A DNA stretch of 61,194 bases from Paraglomus occultum (Eukaryota > Glomeromycota > Glomeromycetes > Paraglomerales > Paraglomeraceae): contig CAJVPJ010000039.1 in NCBI GenBank assembly GCA_910592205.1, positions 1-61,194 of the forward strand, written 5' to 3'. Of this stretch, positions 1 to 43,653 are shown piece after piece (position 1 is the stretch's first letter; every line of letters begins with the position of its first letter). The notes under the pieces were generated by a model, which saw nothing but the letters and a program-made list of their open reading frames with translations, ran no database searches and was not told where the DNA came from. Made by a program: the position numbers and the translations under genes.

Positions 1-105
1 GGCGTTTTGCCTTTTATTGCACCGGAAGTCTTCCATACCTGCAAATTTACTCAGAAATCGGATGTGTATTCATTTGGCATCATTATGTATTTGATTGCTA
101 CTGTC
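1..105 (+). pseudogene. TKL-like kinase fragment, activation-segment end only
   Basis: About 35 codons are open in frame 1 and match the activation-segment end of the intact kinase at 41-43.7 kb: GVLPFIAPEV, then KFTQKSDVYSFGIIMYLIA. This is the APE motif and the start of helix F. Near base 103 the match stops, and the following DNA is the opposite strand of a related kinase gene. The HRD and DFG motifs that should precede it are not in the window, so this is a broken piece or the edge of a gene starting left of the window. It is inverted relative to the kinase gene immediately to its right. Confidence 0.7.
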
Positions 106-2095
106 ATCCATGTGGTCATGCATAACAATGTTTCCGCCATGTAGATCACTGTGCGTTAATCCCGCACTATGAATGGTATCCAGATACCATGCAATATCTT
201 TCAAATGACGTAATTTATCCAACCACGTCAATTTGTTAATTTTTTGAACCAAATAAGACAAAAGACTGTCATTGTTAGCATATTGCATAACAATTATGCA
301 CTCTTTTGTCTCTGGGTCTTGTGTGATTCCATAAAGGGAAGGGAATGAATAACCACACTTGGCATGATTTCTGAACTATTAAATAAATAATAAATAGAGT
401 CAGCTTAAATGTCACTTTAATTAATACTACTAATCATTGCTTACCTCGGAAATAAATAATTCCGACATTCCATCAAAATTTTTAAATCGTTTGAGCACAA
501 CTGTTTCCTTCCTCATACGCTTTACTTCCGAATACTTTTTATACTTTGCAGTATAAACAGTTCCGTAACCACCAGATCCAATCTGTTTAACATCATAAAA
601 GTCGCTATATTGCATGTATTTAACATGTTCGTTGTTTCGTATAAACGTGTCCAGTATTGCATATATGTCGTAATAGAAAACCAAATAATATTCCCGAGTA
701 GATGACTTCTGAGTGATCCCAATTATCCAGACATTATCGGGTGTTAAAATCGTCGGGTATTTCTTAGTTAACTATTTTGAGTAAACAGAATATACATTAT
801 AACATTAATCAATCAGACGTATGATACGCACTTATCGGTTGCATCGTTTAACACGTAACACGTGAAATAATTTACCTGATGAAAATCAAGCGACTGATTG
901 TTTTGTTCGTCAACTATTTTTTTGAGTGTTACACGGGTCAATGTATTCCAGTTTGCTACATGCGTGCATCCATGGCTTAATGGCGTCATCTCTTGTATTT
1001 TTGTTAATAGAGAATATTCAACCCATTGTATATATGCATCACATACGTTCTTCATATTATTCCATGACTCTACAATAAATGAATCTAAAGACTTGTTGCC
1101 AGTTGTCCAATGGAGAGGTCTTGGTGCTTTGCATTCATAACAGAATGCTTTTATCTTGCGTTCTAGATGCTTCGTACACGCCAGACATAATCCACATTTC
1201 TGGTATCCTTTTATTAGACAATACTTTCTCGACTTTGTATTGCATGTAAATCCGATGGTAACCCAAACATCCTTATTGAGAATATCAGGACGCTTATCAC
1301 ATAACTAGTAGAAATGATACATAATAATAAGTCAATAATTATTTAAACTATTCAATAAACGTGACGCATATGTAAATAGTTTACCTCAGCATAATATAAA
1401 TCATCTGTCTCGTCTGTTATCTCAAGCGGAATTAATTTAACCCTATAGTAAGCAGGTAGACCATACAACCATCCATATGTCCCATAATCACCAATACAAT
1501 CGAATGGAATCCATTCCAAATAGGCGTCATTTGGTGAGTTTGTTTGTAGTTGAGATTTCTTAATAAAGTCATCGAGTTGGTGATTGTTGCTAGTCCACCC
1601 ATCGGATAATTGTTTATAACCACAAATGCACCACACGGGACTACATCGGAGTATTCCACATGTGGAGCAGAAGCCATATCGAGAATAACAATGGTAAAAG
1701 CGTTTATCAGCAATCATGTAATAGTTATCGTCATTAGACTTGGTGAATCCATATATGAGGCTGTTGCGTTCTTTAAGCCAATTTGCATGCCGTCCGAACC
1801 GATTAATATCAATGCTATTGTTGTAATTGTGTGTTGGAAGTGAGTATATTCTTGCAAGCTCACTCACAAGTGTTGGTGTGCATTCTTCACTACTTCCAAG
1901 TAACAGTAACATAATCTCATACTCATCATCGTCATCATGCTTGCGAATAGCGCAGTAGACGTTGTCAATTTCAGTCGACTTTACGTTGGTGATTTCCTCG
2001 AAAGGAATCCATTTCAGTCCCAAGTACTTCTTTTCGCTTTCCAAGGAGGATTCAACCAAGTTGGCAATGGCTGGATTATTAGCAAATAACGACAT
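106..2095 (-). CDS. TKL-like protein kinase with Cys-rich repeats (3'-truncated)
   Basis: Four exons on the minus strand: 2095-1385, 1304-876, 771-445 and 375-~106, all with GT-AG introns that keep frame. The layout matches the paralogue at 41.1-43.7 kb exon for exon. The N-terminal two thirds carry two Cys-rich modules (GFCSTCGILRCSPVWCICG; GLCLACTKH...AFCYECKAPRP), each followed by W-T-x-N-x-x-L-D-x-F-I. The kinase domain then starts with a Gly-rich loop, GSGGYGTV, the catalytic Lys in VVLKRFKNF, and the loop HSDLHGGNIV. The reading frame and homology break just after HGGN near base 106, so DFG, APE and the whole C-lobe are absent and no active kinase can be made as drawn. Kinase activity is inferred only for an unbroken allele. 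The ATG at 2095 gives MSLFANN. The family is one expanded in arbuscular-mycorrhizal fungi; substrate is unknown. Confidence 0.75.
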
Positions 2096-2689: not shown

Positions 2690-2900
2690 GGAGCAATATG
2701 GGAACGGTTGTTGGTCACGGTTGTTGGAAACAACAAAGCTATGCGTTGCGAATCGTCTTTTTTTATGTTCATCAATAGTAATAGAGATACTGTACTCTAT
2801 CCATTGTATATAGGTATCATACTTATTCTTCACGTCATCGTTATGCCATAGTGAATCAATCCAAAGGCGCTTGTTACCCGCAGAGGTCGTGAAATTCGTT
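2690..2900 (-). pseudogene. Decayed fragment of TKL-like kinase exon 2
   Basis: On the minus strand an open stretch reads AGNKRLWIDSLWHNDDVKN, then YDTYIQWIEYSISI. It lines up with TGNKSLDSFIVESWNNMKN...DAYIQWVEYSLL in the adjacent kinase gene and with the equivalent segment at 42.1 kb. The CxxC motifs before it and the kinase domain after it are missing, so only a scrap of exon 2 survives. It lies just upstream of, and in the same orientation as, the first kinase gene, which suggests an old tandem duplicate. Confidence 0.6.
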
Positions 2901-16847: not shown

Positions 16848-19014
16848 GTGGTTATAACTCTTGGCGAAGGGGCGCAGTACTATAATACAAGAACTGATGA
16901 TATTTTGAATGGAAAACAGAAATTTGCAATCATCGGCTTATCCATTATAACGATTGATTGTATTTGCATAGAATTATGAAATTGGAATTAATCGAGCTAC
17001 TAATAAACACCCACCAACCGATTTCAACGTACAGTATAATAACTTTAATACCAATGGTCATAACAACAATCTTATAAACTAACGTAATTTACAGTTCGCG
17101 TGACATGTCGAAAGTTGAGGGGTCTCTTACAAATGGTCATTATGACGTCATTAATAGATAAAGCAATTTTTTGTTCTATCAGCAAAAATGGGAGATGCGG
17201 CCAGACAAGTAAGAGGAACAACCCAAATTAAATGAAATCTATTATGTTTATCTTGTTTCTTTGTTGCTCGCCTTTTACCTTTTCCTTTTTAAGTTCCTTA
17301 TCATTTCTAGGCACAACGCCATACTATTTATAGATTTTGCCATCTTGTAAGTTGACGTCTCGTGTAACATGAATCTCACATCGAAAGTGAAACATTGCAC
17401 TACAGAATTAATGGTTACTAAACAGCTGGTTCGACGTTTTAGATCCTCTCATTAAATTATCCGTTTTCGCTAACACAACATATTGGTGTTGCATGTTAGA
17501 TTTAATGATTCGCGTTTTCTAAATTAATTGCCTGCATTATGGCCAATGATGGGTGAAACGACGAGCGAACGTTTTGAGGCAGGAATAATGAAAACATTAC
17601 GCTTTATGAGTGATGATGACTAACTTTTTGCAAATGATTGCGTCCGAGGCAAGGGTGTATATAGCATATACGAATACGGGCGTTATACTATCAGATGTAT
17701 CGTATGACTGATAAGCGTACAAAAGAATATCAAACACACAAGTCTTGCTCAAGAACGCATCCTCCATGTCAAACAGGATTTAAAACCTGGGGTCATGACC
17801 GTGCCATTTAACCATATTTTCAAACCATATTTTTAAAATCGATTATCGCCCGAGTTCTAATTTTGGATCATCCACCAATTAGCAAGAACTCGTTAAAGTC
17901 TTGGCAGCTCCAGAGTGTAAATTATATCAGTTTAGAACTAACATTCTAATTTCTGATTGACAGCGTTCTTGACTATCAACGAGTCCACGAGCGGTTTTGA
18001 CCAAAATAACATTATGCCACGCATATATATATTTATATCCTCGTAAAAGAATCTTGTTACAAATAATAATGAAAATTACAGGTTACATAATTTATATTTA
18101 TTGGATAAATCGTATATGATTGGTCACATAAATATACATGTGTCTTGGGGCCAGCATGCGATACTGTTTAGTATGGCGATTAATAAAGACTATAGCCCTT
18201 CGGAGACGCTTACTATATCGAGCATGGGTTCCTGACCCGTTGATGTGGGAATAGCTGACATAGAAACAAACTAGAAGAGATAGAGTAATATTAGCTACCC
18301 ATAAAGTTATAAAGCAAATGTATATATAGAACTAGACAATCAACTGTTTGTTTTTAGTTGTCGCACAATTCCATTATTTTCAAAGCGAGGGAATGAGAAT
18401 CACCAGACTTTATGACCGTTTCTCAATTAATGTGTGAGAGAATCACTTATTTGTGCATTCTGTACACAGCCTACATGTATATATACCTCGGTATTCGCTT
18501 CTGTTTCTTTCTTAATTTAGTTGCTGTAATTTGATTGATTAATACTCTGCTTTTTTTTATACTATTTATAATCGTTCCCTCTACTGACCCATACTTCATT
18601 TGCACTTATCCCACATTATACACATCCACAAATAGAGTCTGTCTGCAACCATCATTGGTCAAAGTGTATTTTTAGTACCAGAATTTTTCTACAACTCAAT
18701 TATCCCCCTCATATATCCCTTATTGTAACCCCCACTACTTATACAGTAACACATCCCCTGCTCCATCTTTTCCTCCGCTTGTCTTTCTGCTCTCTTTAAA
18801 CTTTTCCAGTCTTTCTTTGGCGACTGTTTTTCGTGTTGCTGACGAGCAGACAACATATAATCTTTAATAAATGCTTTGCTTACAGGATTATATTTACTAT
18901 AATAATATAACATACAACTGAATACTCAGCGAATACACTGAGAATTTAGTAAAAATAAAATAAAACTACCTAGACCAATACTAATATTATACATCACAAA
19001 ACTCTATATCAAAA
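16848..19014. other. Spacer upstream of chitin synthase
   Basis: No credible gene of normal size. A possible 28-codon spliced micro-ORF lies at 17188-17208, 17311-17346 and 17426-17455 (+), beginning MGDAARQ and using good splice signals, but it has no known match. The minus frame at 18689-18913 overlaps the chitin synthase 5' region and looks incidental. The last 100 bases are A/T-rich leader to the ATG at 19015. Confidence 0.35.
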
Positions 19015-22000
19015 ATGCCAAAGAAAAAGTCTCGCACCACAAATCGTCCAGCCTCGGGAATCCCAACCGACGATAGAGTTGACCTCACTCAACTGCTTGC
19101 TTCTGCAAATTCGAGCACTTCAGATGAAGAAGTCGTTCAGCTTTTAGGTGCCAGGCATAGAGCCGATTGCCCTTATACGCGTATCAGTGCTTCGTGCTTG
19201 GTTACTGTTAATCCTTACAAGCCATTAGAATGTATGAACGACGTTAACGCAAAGGAATACGCTGAACAATGGTACAAGGACACGAGTGGCAACAAGACTA
19301 ATCTTCAACCTCACATTTATGAATTGGCCGCGAGAATATACTTGCACATGAGGAGATCCGCCGAAGACCAGAGTGTCATTTTCAGGTATGAATTAAGCAA
19401 TAATAGTAAGACCAATTGGCAATTAATACAACGGGCTTGCCCACAGAATTGAACTAAAACTTATACTCTACCCAATTTTAACCCCAGCGGAATCACGGGA
19501 TCAGGAAAAACAGCGAGTCACAATCATCTCATCCAGCAACTTCTTCTTCTCTCCACACACACAAAGAAAGAATCAAAAATATCCAATCAAATAGAAAATG
19601 CACAGATAATTCTCGAAGCGTTCGGCAATGCAAAAACAGTGCAAAACAATAACGCATCACGTTATGGAAAATATACAGAGCTGCAATTCAACGAACGAGG
19701 CCGTATCATTGGAACAAAGTTTCTAACATACGGATTCGATAAACCACGCGTCACATCTGTCCCACAAGACGAAAGAACTTATCATGTGTTCTACTATTTA
19801 CTGGCCGGAGCTACAAGCGAAGAGAAATCTCAACTGCGTTTACAAGATCCATCTTCTTATCATTATCTGTCTCAATCGAAATGCTATAAAATCGGTGATG
19901 TCAACGACTCTATCAAGATGGACGAGCTCCGTGATGCATTAAGAACGTTAAAGTTCAAACCTAGAACAATAAGCCGAATTTGGCAATTACTCACCGGTAT
20001 ATTATTATTAGGCAACGTTGAATTCGTCGACCCCGGAAAGAATGCAAAAGACGAAGCCGCGGCTATAAAAAACCACCATGTTTTAGAGTCGGCTGCTGGA
20101 CTCTTGGGAGTGCCGCCTGCCAAGTTGCAGTCAACGCTGACGTATAGGGCAAAATTCATCAGGAAAGAACTGTGTACTGTATTCCTGAATGCCGAGGCAG
20201 CCGCCGAACAGAGAGACGGACTCGCCAGAGTCCTGTATTCGATCTTGTTTACGTGGATAGTAGAGCATATCAATTCCAAGTTGATCCAGTCGGACGAACC
20301 ACCAAACTTTATCGGACTGTTGGATCAGCCGGGATACCAAAACTTTGCAAGCAATGGGTTCGAACAATTTACTGCCAACTTTGCCACAGAAGAAATCGAG
20401 AACTTCGTAGTAAAGAACATTTTTGATGATTTATACGGAGAAAATGCTGAACTAAAAAATGATGGCGTCTCGGTAAGAAGAATAATGACTATGGACAATA
20501 AGGAATGTGTAAAACTACTTAGGGGAGATCCTCCCAAGTCGTCAAAGAAACCAGGTGGTCTAATAGGCATTTTGGATCAAGAATGCGCCAAAGTCCAGAG
20601 TGGCAAGGAAACAGTCACTGACAGCCAATTACTTGCCGCTTTTCAAAAGACATACTCTTCCCACCCATCATACGTAGCTAAACCATCCACATCCAAGTTT
20701 TCGTCTAAAGCAGGCGCGTTCGGAATTAGTCACTTTACAGGACAAGTAACATACTCTGTCGACCAATTTATGGATAAGAATCTTGACACCTTATCGCCCG
20801 ATTTTGTTAACTTATTCAGAGATACAACTAACCCATTTATCAACAAACTGTTCTCTGGGCCAGCACTATCTATCGAAAATCACCCTCGATCGGACAAAAC
20901 GGTCGTCATGGCTCAACTACAAACCAAACCAATGAGATCTCCGAGCATGAAGAAGCCAAAGAAAAAGGTAGAAAGCGAATCGGAAAAGGTAGACGACGGC
21001 AGCTCGAAACGACAATCTGGTGTCAGCACAGTTACTACACAACTATATCAAACACTGAACCAACTTCTAGAGACGTTTGCTGAAACTCGTCTGTGGAATG
21101 TTTTCCAAATCCGCCCCAATGATTCACAAGAACCCGATAACTATGACGCAAAAAAAGTCAAAGCCCAAGTCAGAAGCTTTTTAATTCCCGATATCACCGC
21201 TCGTTTAAAGACATCGTATACTGCTCATTATACGTTTGAGGACTTTTTGGCACGTTATGAGTCTATCTTGGCACCTTTGAACCTGGAACCATCGCGTAGC
21301 GATGCTCAGAAAGTCGAGACGTTTGCTACAATATCCGGATGGGACCAGTCATCCATCGCGTTGGGTAGGTCAATGGTGTTTTTGTCAGATTCTGTGTGGA
21401 AAGAACTCGAGGATAGTCTTCGTGCCTCTGAGAAGGAAGAAAGAGCAAAAGCCAAGGCACTCAGGGACGACGATAGTCAGGCTAGCGGGTTTGATGGAGA
21501 CGAGAGATATTTACGAAGCGTACCGAAAGGTGGCTCGCGATCTCGACTGTTACCCAAATTTGCTGGAGCTGATTATCTGGATGATCAAGGGAGCCATGTT
21601 GGTAGCGAAGACGAGTATAATTCGAGGAGCGGGGGAACGGGAACACAATATGGTGGCGATGAAGATGAAGGGAGTTTATGGGGAGTTGGGTGAGTGGCCT
21701 TCTTTTTGGAAAGTTCCCGGCATATTCGCTGTCGGTCATTGGGTTGTTTTACTTAATTGTGTAACGTTGATGCATGTCTAATGTTTCGAAAACCGTACAT
21801 CAACAGTTATACCCACGATATAGGTAAAGCAGATGAAAAGGCGGTAGAAACCCACGAAGAAATCGAAGAGCTCCCCGTCACCCGTATACGCATTTGGTGG
21901 GTCCGCTTTGTCTGGCTTATGACTTGGTGGATTCCAAGCTTTATGCTCACGTATATTGGCAAAATGAAGCGACCTGACATTCGGATGGCTTGGCGCGAGA

Positions 22001-25000
22001 AATTTACTCTCTGTATTCTCATTTTCCTCCTTTCTGCCGTAATCATTTTTTACATCGTCTTCTTTGGTCATTTGATTTGTGCCGGTGACGACAAGGTGTA
22101 TTCTCAAAATGAAGTTGGTTTCCATACTGGCGATACTGACTGGTGGGTTAGTTTCCGAGGGAGCGTATTCGATTTGAGTAACTTTTGGCAGAGTTCGATA
22201 GGTCATTCGGATGTCCTTGGGCAACCTGCAGCAAAGGCGAACATGGAGCCGTATGGTGGTCAGGATGTCTCACCATATTTCCCATTGCCGTTAAGCACAA
22301 CCTGTGCGGGCTTAGACTTTGGTCAGAATCCGGATACTGTCGTACTAACGCAGAACATCAGCAACATTGTTCCAAATGCATTCTTTCATCAGTTTGGGAG
22401 TAAAAATATATACGCGGGTTCTAAACTTGCTAGCCCAGATTGGTATACGAATAACTTTCTTCCTCGTATGAAGACGATGTACAAAGCTCGACTAGTGTGG
22501 TCGCGAAAAGATGTTCTCGAACAGGGACAAGGTGAAAATCCCAGACTGTGGGCCATTATCCATGAAGGAGTGTATGATTTGACTCAGTATTTTGCTACGC
22601 AGAATTCAGTAGGACAAACTTCACGACCCGCAAATGGGCCTAATTATCATTATTTAAGTGACTCTGTCGAAACACTATTCAAAAGTTTTCCTGGACAAGA
22701 TCTAACTAGCAGATTCAACAAGGCTTTTAACACTCAAGAAGATTATCAAAACAATCTCAACTGTCTACAACAAATATTCTATATTGGTGGAATCGACTTT
22801 CGTAAATCATTCAGATGCCAATTCAATAATTACATGCTGCTGACTTTCTCGTGCATGTTGTTTGCTGTCATTGGTGTGAAATTCTTGGCTGCATTACAAT
22901 TAGGATCAAGACGCAAGCCAGAGGATCATGATAAATTTGTCATTTGCCAAGTGCCGTGTTATACGGAAGGGGAAGATTCGTTAAGGCGTACGATGGACTC
23001 TTTAGCAGCCCTTACCTATGATGATAAACGCAAACTGATCTTTCTTATATGTGATGGTATGATTGTCGGATCTGGTAATGACAGACCTACACCCACCATA
23101 GTTCTTGATATCCTTGGAGTCGATCCAAGAATGGATCCTGAACCATTGTCATTCAAGTCAGTCGGAGAGGGCTCTGCTCAGCTGAATTACGGTAAAGTCT
23201 ATTCCGGTCTATACGAATATGAAGGTCACGTTGTTCCATACATAGTAGTCGTCAAAGTGGGAAAACCGTCAGAACAGTCGAGACCCGGTAATCGTGGTAA
23301 ACGTGATTCACAAATCATTTTAATGCGATTCCTCAACAAAGTACACTTTGATTTGGAGATGTATCCACTTGAATTGGAGATTTACCATCAGATGAAGAAT
23401 GTCATTGGAGTCAATCCCAGTTTCTACGAATATATTTTAATGGTTGATGCCGATACTGAAGTAATGCCTGATTCGTTGAATCGCATGATATCGTGTATGC
23501 TTCACGATGCTCGCATCATTGGTATATGCGGTGAGACTACTCTGATCAACGAGGAAGGCTCATGGACAACAATGATACAAGTATACGAGTATTATATCTC
23601 TCACCATTTAGCAAAAGCATTTGAATCGCTCTTTGGGTCGGTCACTTGTCTGCCCGGATGTTTCTGCATGTATCGTATCCGAACTCCAACCAAAAATACT
23701 CCATTGATTATATCCAATCACGTAATTGAGGGATACTCCGAGAATCACGTGGACACGCTTCACAAGAAGAATCTGTTGTCTCTGGGTGAAGATCGATACC
23801 TGACTACTCTCATGATGAAACATTTTCCACAATACAAAATGACATTTACGCCAGATGCAATGAGTAGAACGGCCGCACCTGACAAGTGGAGCGTCTTGTT
23901 GTCACAGCGGCGTAGATGGATCAACTCTACCGTTCACAATTTAATGGAGCTGATGTTCTTGTCTGAAATGTGTGGTTTCTGTTGTTTCTCAATGAGATTT
24001 GTGGTATTTATTGATCTTTTTGGTACTTTGATTCTTCCATCGACTGTCGTTTATATTATATACCTCATATGGTCAGTCGCAACGGAAAGACAAGCATTGC
24101 CTATTATTTCACTGGTTATGATTGCTGCAGTTTACGGTCTACAGGCTGTCATCTTTATTCTCAAGAGACAATGGCAGCACATTGGATGGATGTGTATATA
24201 TTTGCTGGCATTCCCATTATTCTCGTTCTTCATTCCAGTCTATGCGTTCTGGCATTTTGATGACTTCTCATGGGGTAACACTCGCGTCGTAGTAGGTGAG
24301 GGAGGCAAGAAACAAATCATTACTACCGATGATGAGAAATTCGACGAAAAATCTATTCCCAAGAAGAAATGGGCGGATTACGAACAAGAAATATGGGAAG
24401 TTGGCACGACAGGGTCACACGAGTCAGGAGTGTCGCGTGGTAGTGCTGCATCTTACCGCAGCAGAGGATCGCACAGGAATTACGAGCCTAGTTATGCTGG
24501 AAGTGCATATGGTGGAAGTCAATACGGCGGAGGGAGTGACTATTTCAGAGATACGAATTTAGCCGCACCTGAGAGAACAAGAGGAAGGTCGAGATCTCCC
24601 GTGCCCAAATATGAACAGTCAGAAGTACGAAACTCGAGGGCGTTTAGTGCTGTTGGAGATTATTACTCTGAACCAAGAAGCTCTATGATTGTTCCGCGCA
24701 ACCAGGATATGGAATTCTATGGTGCTCAGGTTAATCGATTAAGTGCTTATTCAGCCGCGCTTTCTGACGGGCCAAGCGACGAGGAAGTCTTGGCTGAAAT
24801 CAGAAATATCCTAGCAACTGCAAATCTTATGAGCATTACCAAGAAACAAGGTATGTGGGGTAATAAGGGATGCGATTTATTACGTGAATGTAACTGACAT
24901 GAATATCTCCACTTTCTTACCATCTAGTGCGCGAACAACTGACCGCCACGTTTAATACTGACATGTCTTCTCGTAAGGAATTCATTAATAATAGTATAGA

Positions 25001-27223: not shown

Positions 27224-28982
27224 TTAAAAGATGCCCCGCAAATCTCCATGCGATGATGTCGAAGATACAGATGATGTACTACCAACCTGATGGTCTGACA
27301 TTTCGGATACTGGTCGATGCATCAGTGGGGAGATAGCAGATCTTCCGACAGACGAAGTGGCCTTTACATGGGGGGATTTATGTCGCATTTTTCTGCGATG
27401 TATTAGGACGGCCCATTCCTGCTCATGTTTAGCTTGTAGTTCTTGCGTTTCTCTCCTCTGTCTCTCTCTCAAATCAGATACTAAATCTAATTCATCATCC
27501 TCAGTACTATCATCTTCATCTTGTTCTTCCGCAAAGCGAGAATTTAGTCTATGGGTCAAAAGATCCAAATGTAGTTGTTGTGATGCGTCTGAATTACTAT
27601 TTACATGTCTATTTGAATGATGAATACTGTATTCAGGCGGATAGCCTAGAGAAAACAACGTTATTCAATTAAAAATTAAACTTTTTACGATAGTGACAAA
27701 TTAGTGTAAAAAGAGAAATACCGTGAGATTTAGATGTATATCCAGCATCGGCTATCCCCAATCCAATACTCACTCCTGTCTTCAATCCCGACCCATCAAT
27801 CGTTCCCTGTAAATTTTCGGGATGAAGATGCTCACGTAACAAAAAGTCCGACTGTACAATTGAACTGTCTAGAGCACCGATCGAATGAACGGACGAAAGC
27901 GACCCGGTCGACGAAGTCGGCATTTTTCTCACTAGATGCTCATGCGACATATGATATGCGTCGATATGATGGGGTGTATTCGTATAATATATAGAGAAAT
28001 TAGGCATAAGAGGATTAGAACTTCTTCTTGCTCGGTCGTCTCTAGTAGGCACTATTGCAGGAGACTGTGGCCCGGAAGAATTTGCATGCCGTACGTGTTG
28101 CGGTTCGCCGATGACTAGCATTCCTTCACTATCATATGACTCTGTAGGTACGAAATTAGAACCGGTGTGTGCATCTGTCTCAAGCAACTCTTGCACACGA
28201 TAAGGATCTGTACGAATTGCTAGCTGTTCCACAGTTCCCTCTGAAGACGGTCGAGCAGGAAGGCGTAGTGGAGATTTTAACAATGATTCAGTAGCCGTCG
28301 GTTCATTCATACTAGGCACAAGTGAATTTCCAACAGCGGTAGCAACTGTCTCGGGTCGTATGGCAGATGAGGAAACTTGTTGCGCTATAACTTCAGCTGG
28401 CAGAGCAGATGACAAAGAAGATGATCGTCTTTTTATTGAATGTCCTGAAAAGAAATCCTCTGTCGTGCGTGACGTGGTCCCCATGGTGCTCGGCGATTGT
28501 ACGGGAATTTCATGAGCCACGGATTCTGTTACAGATCTTTCGGCTGGTAACGTAAGTTGAGTACCTGCTGGTTGGAGAAAACTATCATTCATTCTGTCAT
28601 TGCGACTAAGTACTTTTCGGACCTCGTCGTCGGCTTCTTTTTCCCACGAAGGTCGAGTCGATGAAGTATGCGGGAGGCTCTCGACAGATGAAGAAATTCC
28701 GTGGTGAGAGGTCGTTTGAAGTAATTCCATGCTTCCATACGATGACGAAATGTCGGAATAATAATTCGGCGAGGGAAATCCATTAGCACTGGCAGTTACT
28801 TTTGTAGGAGTCGTTCCTGACGAGCCGTCAGGTGCACCATCATGAAAACGTTCTGTTTGACCATGGATAGAGGATGTTCTCGATCGTGGAAGACTAGAAT
28901 ATGATTCTTGTGATTGCAGCAACAGCGGCTGTCCTTGTCGCGATTGTTGTAATGGCACGTCCTGTTGCCGGTATTGTTGTAT

Positions 28983-29019
<37 letters not shown>

Positions 29020-29148
29020 GGTAATTGTTGTCCTTGTTGTTGCTGTTGTTGCTGTTGCTGTTGCTGCGGTAATTGTTGTCCTTGTCCTTGTTGTTGCTGT
29101 TGTTGCTGTTGCTGTTGCTGTTGTTGTTGTTGTTGTTGTTGTTGTTGC

Positions 29149-29191
<43 letters not shown>

Positions 29192-30921
29192 GCTGTTGTT
29201 GTTGCTGTTGCTGTTGCTGTTGCTGCTGTTGTTGCTGTTGTTGCCGTCGTCTATCTTGTTGAGCAGGCGTAGGTGCATCCCAAGCAATCTTACTAACAAT
29301 ATCTTCGATTTTTCGCTGCGCCAACATTTGTCCTTCCGGTTTCAAAATTGACTCACGTACCATCTCGGCCACGACGTTCTGAATCGTATCCTCTTCTAAA
29401 TTGAATGGAAATTTAATCTCCATTTCTGGTTGTCCTGGTTCCGTTATTGTCATTTTCAGTGTAACTTCTTCTCGTGTGAGTTTTTCTACAATTTTGACAT
29501 CACATTTAAATAAATCCTCTCCCTGAACGTTCCGGTCGACAGACGCGTCCGTTATTAGTTGTTGAGCATGTCGTGGTGGCGGAAAAGTAGCTGACCGTAC
29601 TTGGTAAGTTTTGCTTTCTGCATCAATGGTTTTGGTTGCAATTGACAAATTAGGGGGTGGTAGCTGTTTTTTCTGGTCATATGGCTCAATGTTAGTGTTG
29701 TCCGATTGAGCTTTCACTTTTGCGGTTTCGTTAGTAATAGTTTCAGTTGTCGAATGCTGTATAATTTGCGGATTCGGTGGCGATATAGTGGCTATTAATG
29801 TCTCTGGGGTATTTTGATCATATGATACAGATAATAATGGCGAAGTTGCTTGTGTTTGTTCTGATACAGCTATTGGTTCGTTAATCATGCTAACGGAATC
29901 CTTTGGGTCCTCTCGCAGAAATTCATGCTCCAAAAGTTCAGCAGCCGAAGGTCTCTCGTTTGGATCAAACCTAAGACAGAGTTCTACAAACTCCAATGTT
30001 TTCGGATCCTTTATTTTATCTAGTGCTTGTGGCCTTATACCGGACGTAACCTTGCGGAAGATCTGTGCCTGGTTATTACATTCAGAATATGGATACTCCT
30101 TACTTACTAACTCGAGTATGCACATTCCAAACGCATAGATGTCCACCTTTTCGTTGTATTTCTCCTCATATAATTCAGGCGCCATAAATTCGGGCTATGG
30201 GGGTATTGCAAGATTTGGTTTCATGAAAATACAAAGCAAACAATATTAATATGAGCATCTGAAGACAGGGGAACCACACAAGAAGCACAAATTCACCCAA
30301 AGTAGTATATACTACCGTTCCAAGCACCGATGATACGTGGTCTCTGTTTTTGATTATTGCTAGACCGAGATCACCAATCTTGGCCTGGCCATTATTTCCA
30401 TTGATGAAAATATTGTCGCATTTGAGATCTCTGTGGATAATTGGCGGATTTCGCGTGTGTAGATAATTCAGGCCTTTTAATATCTGACGAGCCCATTGCT
30501 TAAGAAGTTTAGGTTTAAGAAGGCCCTTGGTTCTTTTTATGTATTGCTTGAGCGTGCCTGAAGTCATGAGTTCGGTTATGAATATAATATGATCTCTCCC
30601 GTCGGATCCCTTCTTTGCCCAGGATGCGTAAAAGTTAATGACGTTTTCGCAGCGCAATGACTGCAAAATCGAGATTTCGTTCAATATCTTTTCTACGTCC
30701 TTTCTTCCCGAAAAACTTGCTTTCAGCTGGCACCATGCAACTTCAACGGCTTCCTCTTGGTCGAACGCTTTAAACACTTCCTTGTAAGCTCCAATACCCA
30801 AACACTCTTCATATCGTTCAAACCGGCCAGTAGGATCTGTGTCTACGACAACGGGACGACCGTCGTCGTCGTCATCATTATTTTCCGCGTTTTCATTAGA
30901 AAAAGGTATTATATTACTCAT
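27224..30921 (-). CDS. WNK-type protein kinase with polyglutamine tract
   Basis: Three exons (30921-30316, 30194-27722, 27645-27224) give 1166 aa. WNK ('with no lysine') kinases lack the usual lysine in subdomain II and use one in the Gly-rich loop; animal and plant members regulate ion transport and osmotic responses. Here the loop is GIGAYKEV (42-49, with the lysine), and subdomain II reads VEVAWCQLK, Cys replacing Lys near 64. HRDLKCDN is at 163-170, GDLGLA near 183-188, and [20 protein letters not shown] starts exon 2. Residues about 430-505 ([19 protein letters not shown]...) resemble the OSR1_C/autoinhibitory-type domain following WNK kinases. A run of about 52 Gln comes next, then a long disordered Ser-rich tail and an acidic/coiled segment ([20 protein letters not shown]). 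Partner SPAK/OSR1-like kinases are not in the window. Confidence 0.92.
29088..29243 (-). repeat. Polyglutamine-encoding tract of WNK gene
   Basis: About 52 consecutive CAA/CAG codons on the minus strand. Two shorter Q runs separated by GQGQQLP and GQQLP spacers follow down to about 28980, which looks like a duplicated unit. Confidence 0.93.
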
Positions 30922-31201
30922 TTGATCACTATTTTTCTGGGTCTTCTTTGAGCAAGGGAGTTAAAACGTCAAGGAAAGGATTGTGGGGACCAGGAATTTT
31001 CATGCAAAACCCGATTGTAATAGGGTTTCACATGCGGGTTTATCATACAGGCCTGGTGCACATACGCACACAATGCGAGTCATCAAACGCATTCTACAAC
31101 GTCTATTACGCCGGTTCACGTGTTAACTGTATTTAGTATTATCATCAGTATTTAGCATTATGTTTACTATGTACAGTATATCATTTTATTTTTGACAAAA
31201 G
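30922..31201. promoter_or_regulatory. Shared promoter, WNK (-) and NCA2-like (+) genes
   Basis: Only 280 bp separate the two start codons, so the genes probably share a divergent promoter. The sequence is mixed, with a short repeated gtatttagtatt/gtatttagcatt block near 31129-31157 just before the NCA2-like ATG. No specific factor site is claimed. Confidence 0.5.
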
Positions 31202-41081: not shown

Positions 41082-43653
41082 ATGTCGTCAAACTCAGAGA
41101 TTGAAGACATTAGTATTCTGGAATGTTCAGCAATAAACGATCTGATCAGATCCACCTCACATCTCAGATCCCATAGTCTTAAATGGATTCCTCACTCGGA
41201 AATTACCAACATAGAGACAGTTCAAATTGAAAGCGACAAGACTGTCCGCTACGCCATGCACAAACGACATGGTGATGTAATGTTGTTATTATTAGGTAGC
41301 CATGAAAAATGCACACCAGAATCTGTGGATGAGTTTGCGAGAATTCACTCACTTCCAACACACGAGCACGCTAATCTACCCAACGTTAATCATTTCAAAA
41401 GATATTCTAAATGGTTTTCTTATCGCAATCGAATGATTTGTGGATTTACCAAATATGAAGATAATTATTATATGATGGCCAAGAGACGCTTTCATCATTA
41501 TTATTCTCTCTGTGGATTCTGTTCCGCATGCGGTATACTCAGATGTAGCTCTGTGTGGTGTATTTGCGGGCATAAAGAATTATCTGATGGCTGGTCCAGC
41601 AACAACAAGAAACTTGACAAGTTTATCAAGAACTCGCAAGCACAAACTGTCTCGGCAAATGAAGCGTATATGGAATGGATTCCATTCGATCGTATCAAAG
41701 TTCAAAGATATAGTGCTTATTTAACCGATCTACCCGCTCATTGTACGATAAGATTGATTCCACTTGAAATAACGGAAGAGACTGAGGATTCATATTATGA
41801 CAAGGTAAAGAATTCAGAATATATTATTCTGCTAATTTAATTTGTTGACCATTAACAAAATGTATTCGCCACTAGTTATGCAAAGACCATCCAGATATAT
41901 GTACAACAAACGTTTGGATTACTATTGGATTTACATATAATGCAAAGGAACAGAAATATTATCTAATTAAATTCACAAACGAGATCGGGTTATGTCTGGC
42001 GTGTACGGAACGATTTACAGACAAAATAAACGCATTCTGTTGGAATTGTAAAGCACCAAGACCTCTTGACTGGACTACCGGAAACGATTCTCTCGATTCG
42101 CTTATAATGCAGTCATGGAATAATACGAAAGACGAAGCTGATAGCTACATACAATGGATAGAATATTCTCAACTGAGAGACGTGCAAAAGACGACTTTAC
42201 TATACCATGGATGTACACATGTAGCGGACTGGTTAGAACCGAGAACTAACAAAGTGATAACAGTAATGATGAAAAAGATTAGTGATGGGCAGAACGCTAG
42301 GTCGTTTGACTTTTATCAGGTAAAGTGTTTATACATAAAACGATCTTATTTGCTATCATCTGAATGTTGAGCGTTTTTTTGAACGTTGTATCTTTTATTT
42401 TAAAGTTGACTAAGGACTATCCAGAAATAATAACCCCAGATAATATTTGGATTGTTGGTATAACTCAAGCGATTTCTACCGGAGACTATTTTTTGGTCTT
42501 TTACCGAGACGTACTTGAAATAGTGGAAAGATATGTCTTCATGCATCATGGTAAGAATGTCAAACTTATACCATACACGGATTTCAACGAGATCAAAGAG
42601 ATCGGATCTGGTGGTTACGGGACCGTCTATACAGCCTGGTGTGAGAGTTTGGAAGAACGCATCGTTATTAAACGCTTTAAGAATTTCGAGAGCATGCCAG
42701 AAGTATTTATTTCCGAGGTAAAGCAGTCTCTGATATAATTCGCTCTGATCAATCAATGTCATGTTCTGACCCCTGTGTCTGTTTAATTCTGGTTTAAAAA
42801 GTTCAACAATCATGCCAAGTGTTCTGGTAAATATCCCGCATTCCTTAAGATTTACGGAATCACGCAGCAGCCCGGGATAAAAGATTGCATGATTGTGATG
42901 CAATATGCCAGTGGCGGTAATCTTTTGTCATTTTTGGAACAAAATTTCAACGTGTTGACATGGAAGATGAAATTACATATTCTGCTTGCGATTTTAAATA
43001 ATTTGTATACTATCCATGACAGAGGATTGGTGCACTGTGATCTCCATGGCGGTAATATAGTTTTGAATTGCAATGCGGACGAGATAGAAGGACATATTCG
43101 TTCAGAAATTCCATTCGTTTTAATATGTGATTTTGGTCTTTCTCGATCAAAGAACTCTTCTGGGTCAAAGTCAGCTGTTAAAGGCGTTTTACCTTTTATT
43201 GCGCCCGAAGTCTTGCACGATTACAAGTTTACTCAGCAATCAGATATATATGCCATTGGCATCATTATGCACTTGATTGCTAGTGGCGAGCACCCCTTCA
43301 GAAATAGACCATTTGATGAACATTTGGCAACGGCTATCTGTAACGGGTTGCGACCAGCAATACCCGCCGCAACACCAAAAGCTTATGCAGATCTTGCTAG
43401 AAAACTTTGTGATGCTGATCCCAACAAACGTCCAACTGCATTTGAAACTTATAGAGACATATTTCGTCTTATTGAAGAGGCAGACAAGGACACGTCCGAC
43501 GATAATATATGGAATGCCGTTTACCGCAAGGACGTGGAACCATTATCACGTATTGAAAAGGAGAGCAAGTATTCTAGTAAAGTGGTGCCAGGCGAAAGCA
43601 ATAGGCTACCTAAACCGAAAAATGATGACGATGATTATTCGGGTGCGGCATGA
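41082..43653 (+). CDS. TKL-like protein kinase with serial N-lobe-like repeats
   Basis: Exons 41082-41804, 41876-42319, 42406-42717 and 42802-43653 give 776 aa. The C-terminal kinase domain is complete: Gly-rich loop GSGGYGTV (456-463), VIKRFKNF with the ATP-binding Lys near 478, catalytic loop HCDLHGGN (Asp573, Cys replacing Arg of HRD), DFGLS (603), and APE (627), then a full C-lobe ending in a Lys/Asp-rich tail. Before it lie two Cys-rich linkers (GFCSACGILRCSSVWCICG; GLCLACTERF...AFCWNCKAPRP) and repeated E/Q-W-I-x-F/Y segments that look like incomplete kinase N-lobes. The first ATG is used; the frame is open 16 codons upstream without an ATG. It is an intact paralogue of the truncated gene at 0.1-2.1 kb. 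Substrate is unknown. Confidence 0.88.

Follow-up and report, generated by a model that had tools for sequence, protein, structure and literature searches.

Non-catalytic kinase N-lobes in series before an apparently active TKL-type kinase in the arbuscular mycorrhizal fungus Paraglomus occultum

Proteins in which an active kinase is joined in tandem to a non-catalytic part of kinase origin are known from the JAK type and from the tandem kinase proteins of plants. In both cases the upstream copy is a whole two-lobed kinase or pseudokinase, and the plant proteins are defined by the presence of at least two complete (or nearly complete) kinase domains in one protein. The RIPK/MLKL-type TKL kinases have single complete kinase domains, and many other kinases tie with them within 1 Z. 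For arbuscular mycorrhizal fungi (AMF), one source gives 2,533 kinase genes in Rhizophagus irregularis (PMC10234402), and another an MLKL-like family with Sel1 in Glomeromycotina (PMC8778642). Here we describe gene A, at 41082-43653 (+) in a stretch of 61,194 nucleotides (the window) from the AMF Paraglomus occultum (assembly GCA_910592205.1, contig CAJVPJ010000039.1, positions 1-61,194 of the forward strand).

Gene A is comparable to the JAK-type and plant proteins in its tandem of a non-catalytic part and a kinase but, unlike them, gene A and its relatives have in the upstream part amino-terminal lobes (N-lobes) only, three to six in series; with its single complete kinase domain, gene A also falls outside the plant definition. 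Our results strongly support the view that non-catalytic N-lobes, kept by selection, stand in series before a kinase that looks active. The whole reading, in which gene A is a TKL-type kinase placed after three N-lobes without carboxy-terminal lobes (C-lobes) and these lobes are docking units that feed the terminal kinase, seems to us fairly probable. In the literature searched (titles and abstracts, with few subscription papers covered) we found no description of arrays of N-lobes or half-kinases.

Gene A and its paralogues

The splice model of gene A was made from sequence alone rather than from transcripts, and has four exons coding for 776 amino acids (aa). Exon 1 (41082-41804, + like all features of this gene; aa 1-241) covers unit 1, Cys linker 1 and the part from strand beta-1 to helix alpha-C of unit 2; exon 2 (41876-42319, aa 242-389) covers beta-4 and beta-5 of unit 2, Cys linker 2 and beta-1 to alpha-C of unit 3; exon 3 (42406-42717, aa 390-493) covers beta-4 and beta-5 of unit 3, a spacer and beta-1 to alpha-C of the kinase; exon 4 (42802-43653, aa 494-776) runs from beta-4 of the kinase to its end and includes a tail. 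The introns (intron 1, 41805-41875, 71 base pairs (bp), GT-AG; intron 2, 42320-42405, 86 bp; intron 3, 42718-42801, 84 bp) are all in phase 0 and sit at the end of alpha-C in unit 2, unit 3 and the kinase, respectively 17, 17 and 18 residues before the G-I/F-T strand, as expected from an earlier sequence-only reading which had placed them at equivalent points; unit 1 is intronless.

Unit 1 (41127-41492, aa 16-137) comprises a half-linker helix and a decayed N-lobe (beta-1, beta-2, beta-3, alpha-C, an extra helix at 102-116, beta-4, beta-5). Cys linker 1 (41514-41675, aa 145-198) has C147, C150, C160 and C162 in a CxxC..CxC pattern, followed by a W-S-S-N-N helix; with the decayed N-lobe of unit 2 (41673-41983, aa 198-277, split by intron 1 after alpha-C and recognised by its hhalign match to unit 3) it spans aa 145-277. 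Cys linker 2 (41984-42154, aa 278-334) has C281, C284, C296 and C299 in a CxxC..CxxC pattern, followed by a WTTGN helix; with the decayed N-lobe of unit 3 (42155-42510, aa 335-424, split by intron 2 after alpha-C and recognised from profiles) it spans aa 278-424. The units start with W35-IPH, W199-IPF and W335-IEY, and the kinase with LIPYTDF; the later strand pairs are, in the same order, ICGFT..YYMMA, ITIGFT..YYLI, IVGIT..YFLVF and IYGIT..MIVMQY. All the motifs named in the sequence-only reading for three N-lobe-like units and an intact kinase are thus present where it had put them, and its two cysteine patterns stand; its tryptophan motif has to be lengthened by one residue, to W-S/T-x-x-N-x-x-L-D. 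The repeat unit consists of a four-cysteine (Cys4) linker, a W(S/T)xxN helix and an N-lobe interrupted by a phase-0 intron between alpha-C and beta-4, and exon 2 is symmetrical (0-0). All three units lack the C-lobe that a two-lobed pseudokinase domain would have: in units 1 and 2 the following linker comes directly after beta-5, and unit 3 is separated by an 18-aa spacer (425-442) from the kinase, which has no Cys4 linker or WTSGN helix directly before it (linkers stand only before units 2 and 3).

The complete TKL-type kinase domain (42565-43467, aa 443-715, containing intron 3) is the only one that Pfam finds in gene A, with matches confined to 450-710 (PF00069, expectation value (E) 1.1e-37; PF07714, E 2.9e-34). 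It has the motifs GSGGYG, VIKRF, SEF, HCDLHGGN, DFG and APE, including all four catalytic residues (beta-3 Lys, alpha-C Glu, HxD Asp and DFG Asp), and judged by these motifs it looks active.

Gene B (73-2095, -; exons 2095-1385, 1304-876, 771-445 and 375-73) matches the layout of gene A in four exons, as had been proposed, though it breaks off near the contig end. Opposite to it, window positions 1-111 (+) code for part of a kinase corresponding to aa 621-657; this inverted fragment, at the end of the contig, is either an assembly artefact or a convergent copy; upstream of it, 2768-2884 (-) is a decayed exon-2 remnant of the gene A family (E 6e-6). Searching the 32-Mb genome with exon 2 gave at least 150 copies (a lower bound, the best 150 of 439 candidates having been scored, with some matches partial), 147 of these 150 being without a stop in the matched stretch; in another genome search, 150 of 162 matches merged into 94 places on 83 contigs. 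All four exons are open in 20 of 24 gene models, made by a builder that allowed only phase-0 junctions (the third junctions of L042, L045b, L048 and L054 scored poorly). The models with stops (L013, L050, L052, L056) were excluded from the resulting 20-model alignment, and gene B was also excluded from the identity table, which leaves 19 paralogues. In the terminal kinase of the 20 models (one of which, gene B, ends before the activation segment), the beta-3 Lys and the alpha-C Glu are each present in 18 and the HxD and DFG aspartates each in 17; GxGxxG is present in 13, and the Phe of DFG is replaced by Leu in 13.

The claim that the glycine loops of the repeats are gone holds throughout: residues 41-60 of unit 1 lack GxG in 118/118 sequences of an exon-1 alignment, GxGxxG occurs in 0/20 models in unit 2 and in 0/20 in unit 3, and unit 3 lacks even GxG in 20/20. 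The beta-3 strand of unit 1 (66-71) is without Lys in 118/118 sequences, and its alpha-C Glu (E84) is retained in 109/117; unit 2 has a Glu at the end of alpha-C in 15/20 models, and unit 3 has the beta-3 Lys in 20/20 with its alpha-C Glu replaced by Gln (17/20), Lys or Arg. Mean pairwise identity among the 19 paralogues is 0.55 in unit 1, 0.77 in linker 1, 0.56 in unit 2, 0.60 in linker 2, 0.63 in unit 3, 0.59 in the kinase N-lobe, 0.63 in the C-lobe and 0.33 in the spacer. Variability in the exon-1 alignment is lowest in the linker (0.38 bits), the W-x-x-N helix (0.62), alpha-C (0.89), beta-4 (1.02) and beta-5 (1.05), and within unit 1 it is highest in the beta-2/beta-3 loop (3.21) and the former glycine loop (2.17). 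All four cysteines are present in 118/118 sequences in linker 1 and in 20/20 models in linker 2. The Cys4 linkers are probably zinc sites; zinc-ribbon families score below their cut-offs in unit 2 (DZR 14.0 bits, cut-off 27.3; zf_Tbcl 14.6, cut-off 24).

One could take these values to mean that function resides in the Cys4 linker and its W-T-S-x-N helix, as a partner-binding module, and that the decayed N-lobes are folded spacers kept by position, since linker 1 is more conserved than unit 1 or even the kinase C-lobe and its cysteines are invariant. We find this unlikely: unit 1 has a half-linker only, and yet its alpha-C, beta-4 and beta-5 are conserved over the 118 sequences, whereas a true spacer should drift, as the spacer at 425-442 does.

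Kinase ancestry of the units

The ordinary linker-bearing TKL kinases of AMF, such as P0008 of Paraglomus brasilianum and C149 of this genome, have one linker, one N-lobe and one C-lobe. They have in common with gene A, with variations, the Cys4 linker, the WTSGN helix, the WIPY start, the intron at the end of alpha-C (seen in C149, in phase 0), the GITQDPxTxxY strand pair and the HxDxHxGN catalytic loop, but gene A adds three N-lobes without C-lobes and has no linker directly before its kinase. Ten ordinary loci of this genome (L006, L007, L061-L068) carry variants of the linker, the helix, the start, the glycine loop and VALK, with the exceptions that L064 is without the first Cys pair and that L065 and L068 deviate in the W and WIPY motifs. 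In nine of the ten, frame changes or stops occur at the end of alpha-C, before the GITQDP strand (L065 stays open), and the splice sites checked in L007 define an intron of 101 bp. Since the ordinary kinases share this layout, the repeat includes the Cys-rich linker, and every window unit corresponds to the N-terminal half of an ordinary kinase (a half-kinase). A search with the C149 N-terminus gives a match in gene A that covers linker 2 and the beginning of unit 3 (41984-42238, E 9.3e-6). In many paralogues it matches linker 1, that of gene A not being among the matches listed.

A further locus, L005 (C16:46339-50127, -), is an AMF-type WIPH kinase with a WTSG helix which is open if TGA (eight occurrences) is read as Trp; its contig probably belongs to a mycoplasma-related endobacterium holding a fungal-type kinase. 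Several TGA also occur in kinase matches on C393, C1222, C593, C970, C877 and C662.

Between the ordinary kinases and gene A stand several loci of this genome. C749 and C1104 show rows of matches to the C149 query about 600 bp apart. In the first (L059, C749:3600-9000), six half-kinases, every one of them equipped with a Cys4 linker, precede a seventh N-lobe that runs into a C-lobe; its seven modelled introns (65-85 bp) are all in phase 0 at the end of alpha-C, and its N-lobes are far less decayed, with the beta-3 Lys kept in five of six half-kinases. The second (L060, C1104:300-5300) is its paralogue, in which exon 2 seems to be frameshifted, and a third paralogue, C263, is cut by the contig end. 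C196, whose stretch covered here has two half-kinases plus the linker belonging to a third, and L071 (C83:32500-35300), with one half-kinase before a kinase that reads HGNLHSGN, look intermediate. The C83 kinase is probably a pseudokinase, its HRD motif reading HGN, without a catalytic Asp.

Homology was assessed with hhalign against column shuffles, 40 for paralogue profiles and 25 for profiles of Rhizophagus units (85 of 101 units, those of at least 140 aa, were kept). None of 40 shuffles did as well as the matches between linkers 1 and 2 (E 3.1e-11), between the N-lobes of units 2 and 3 (E 3e-6) or between unit 3 and the kinase N-lobe of gene A (E 2.1e-7); unit 1 matches unit 2 with E 1.5e-7 (no shuffles made). 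The half-kinases of C749 and C1104 match the window kinase N-lobe (E 1.4e-13), unit 3 (E 3.3e-12 over 137 columns), unit 2 (E 7.9e-16, chiefly via the linker) and unit 1 (E 2.3e-4), again with 0/40 shuffles as good, and their N-lobe part taken separately gives weak matches to unit 1 (E 0.0021) and unit 2 (E 0.0043) that still exceed all shuffles. Rhizophagus units match the N-lobes of unit 1 (E 1.8e-10), unit 3 (E 8.8e-10) and the kinase (E 3e-28), as well as unit 3 with its linker (E 1.4e-16 over 138 columns), and the window kinase N-lobe matches unit 1 in the 118-sequence alignment (E 1.5e-6), in every case with 0/25 shuffles as good.

Other comparisons gave weaker matches or none. The unit 1 N-lobe matches units 2, 3 and the kinase only weakly (E 0.0062, 0.0029 and 0.0026), yet better than all 40 shuffles. 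The unit 2 N-lobe has no significant match to the kinase N-lobe, 21 of 40 shuffles being equally good, and against Rhizophagus units it gives only E 2.5e-4 over 7 columns, with 0/25 shuffles as good. With the first unit boundaries, neither unit 1 nor unit 2 matched the kinase; refined boundaries and deeper profiles rescued unit 1, not unit 2. The expected profile match between the repeats and the kinase N-lobe was therefore obtained for units 1 and 3, and for unit 2 the assignment depends on the match with unit 3, together with its linkers, the order of units and the intron.

Structure prediction bears this out for exon 1: the AlphaFold2 model from 118 sequences (predicted local distance difference test score (pLDDT) 85.8, predicted template modelling score (pTM) 0.81) shows beta-1, beta-2, beta-3, alpha-C, beta-4 and beta-5 in unit 1, and all 50 structural neighbours listed are kinases, with modest Z scores. 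The N-lobe fold is thus indicated for unit 1 by model and profile, for unit 3 by profile, and for unit 2 only indirectly, through unit 3. A sceptic could reply that the units are an unrelated beta-rich Cys4 domain that resembles an N-lobe by chance, because Pfam has no kinase match in units 1-3 and the structural Z scores are not high. Such a coincidence is hardly credible, since C749, C196 and C83 form graded steps that lead from the ordinary kinases to the window units, the intron position is common to them, profile E-values go down to 1e-10 and kinases fill the list of structural neighbours. In the six half-kinases of C749, too, Pfam has no kinase match, and a profile of nine half-kinases found no kinase in the PDB by sequence. 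We are confident that the units descend from the linker and N-lobe of ordinary AMF kinases.

Selection, distribution and origin of the arrays

Might gene A and its relatives be adjoining kinase pseudogene fragments, read through as one gene, with no such protein in existence? There are stops in 4 of the 24 models, the frameshift in C1104 and the remnant upstream of gene B. However, most models are open in four exons (with phase 0 imposed), exon-2 matches are almost all free of stops, and the same boundary between beta-5 and linker occurs in Rhizophagus and in the gene A family. Furthermore, the ratio of nonsynonymous to synonymous substitution rates (dN/dS, NG86 method) between C749 and C1104 is 0.22, 0.27, 0.16, 0.16, 0.25 and 0.34 in exons 3-8, and in the eight closest pairs of the window family (pairs with members in common, gene A not being one of them) 31 of 32 cells lie at 0.22-0.69 and the remaining one at 0.99 (dS 0.06). 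It is strongly supported that the family members are real genes under purifying selection, not debris, and an artefact of decay is very improbable.

A protein search with C149, which admitted proteins of up to 1.75 times the query length, found 80 proteins; the 78 with a species name are all from Rhizophagus, Paraglomus, Glomus, Scutellospora or Gigaspora, and the closest is from Paraglomus brasilianum (77% identity; the two group together in the tree, 100/100). By a rough motif count, 45 of the 80 have at least two beta-4 motifs, 22 at least three and 6 at least four, and 23 of the 45 miss the HxD pattern, which is not proof of a missing C-lobe; some gene models may also be mis-joined or cut. 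Rhizophagus proteins have up to four N-lobe units in series, and by the motif count many "kinases" of this genus contain two to four. RirG_169100 (P0001) of R. irregularis (671 aa) has three half-kinases, each followed directly by the next linker with no C-lobe between. Its fourth N-lobe stops some 20 residues after beta-5, just beyond the hinge, so this gene model may be cut short. In P0001 and its relatives the linker and N-lobe units are serial as in gene A, but the N-lobes are much less decayed (VALK and YSAIW are kept) and form a separate clade. The Foldseek list for P0001 is topped by JAK structures. The Pfam family BCS1_N (PF08740) matches 10 of 19 aligned Rhizophagus proteins, apparently a wrong assignment of the repeat.

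Units 1-3 of gene A had no match at 1e-3 among 5.8 billion proteins (candidates of about 427-1358 aa only), a result likely explained by these length limits. A profile made from eight paralogues and trimmed to 442 aa found 116 related proteins of 232-388 aa, whose source tags and short contigs suggest a metagenomic origin; as they were found with a profile of window units, the gene A family is not confined to this assembly. Within the length limits of the protein searches, no named P. brasilianum member was among the matches to window-type units.

In the tree, a single clade (100/100) unites all units of C749, C1104 and C263 with the N-lobe of their kinase, and within it units at equal positions pair (six starred pairs; for unit 5 there was a single row). 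This pairing across the three genes indicates that the C749-type array was built by internal duplication before the genes split. Rhizophagus units group apart from these, in a clade of their own (100/99), but a joint clade is not rejected by the approximately unbiased (AU) test (p 0.417, and p 0.187 with C196 and C83). These results suggest that arrays arose repeatedly, with a single origin not rejected. The window units, on stem branches of 1.5-1.9, have no stable placement and their inclusion (in a tree from which two rows, ord_C888 and Rord_P0061, were excluded) lowers the Rhizophagus clade to 66/99. For gene A itself, the internal duplication proposed in the sequence-only reading agrees with the matches between units and between units and kinase, and with the common intron position. 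As for its route, we infer that this was likely duplication of the phase 0-0 exon with beta-4, beta-5, linker and beta-1 to alpha-C, since duplication of such symmetrical exons through introns would keep the frame.

Elsewhere in the window, 18985-24897 holds a myosin-head-like open reading frame (ORF) and then an ORF which we take to be chitin-synthase-like (both family names being our assumption), and 27669-30960 what is presumably a WNK-like kinase with a poly-Gln tract.

Possible function and meaning of the arrays

We imagine that exon duplication made the upstream N-lobe copies, which would have lost the ATP-binding residues and kept the fold. Half-kinases without a C-lobe could not transfer phosphate, and the string of N-lobes would act as docking and oligomerisation modules: the conserved face of alpha-C, beta-4 and beta-5 and the Cys4 linker would bind partner kinases or other proteins, and the single terminal catalytic domain would in this way be brought together with others or switched allosterically. 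This docking and assembly mechanism, which fits the conservation of alpha-C, beta-4, beta-5 and the linker alongside the loss of the ATP site, we put forward as tentative, with somewhat less than an even chance of being correct.

A different function would be that of a recognition array, an analogy borrowed from the decoy idea for plant tandem kinase proteins: N-lobe units would mimic ordinary kinases or one another, a foreign or non-self factor would bind them and trigger the terminal kinase, and the set of paralogues would be a repertoire. The number of divergent copies in one 32-Mb genome speaks for this idea, as does the fact that the loops of unit 1 are its most variable parts, and the separate Rhizophagus clade would fit a repeated origin (though one origin is not rejected). 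On the other hand, dN/dS is below 1 in 32/32 cells of the eight closest pairs, variable loops are ordinary in any protein, and the ligand and the trigger are purely hypothetical, so that we regard a decoy role as doubtful and give preference to docking.

Beyond gene A, there is in our opinion about an even chance that the kinase N-lobe with its Cys4 linker is a free-standing repeat domain in AMF, occurring in strings of up to six or more and forming a new class of scaffold, perhaps with multiple origins and perhaps in some cases without a catalytic domain. If this is true, a sizeable share of the thousands of AMF "kinases" would be half-kinase arrays. Kinase counts could then mislead, and these fungi, which colonise most land plants, would possess a non-catalytic signalling or recognition system that has so far gone unnoticed. 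A kinase lobe used as a repeat module would also offer a direct test case for what a lone N-lobe can do.
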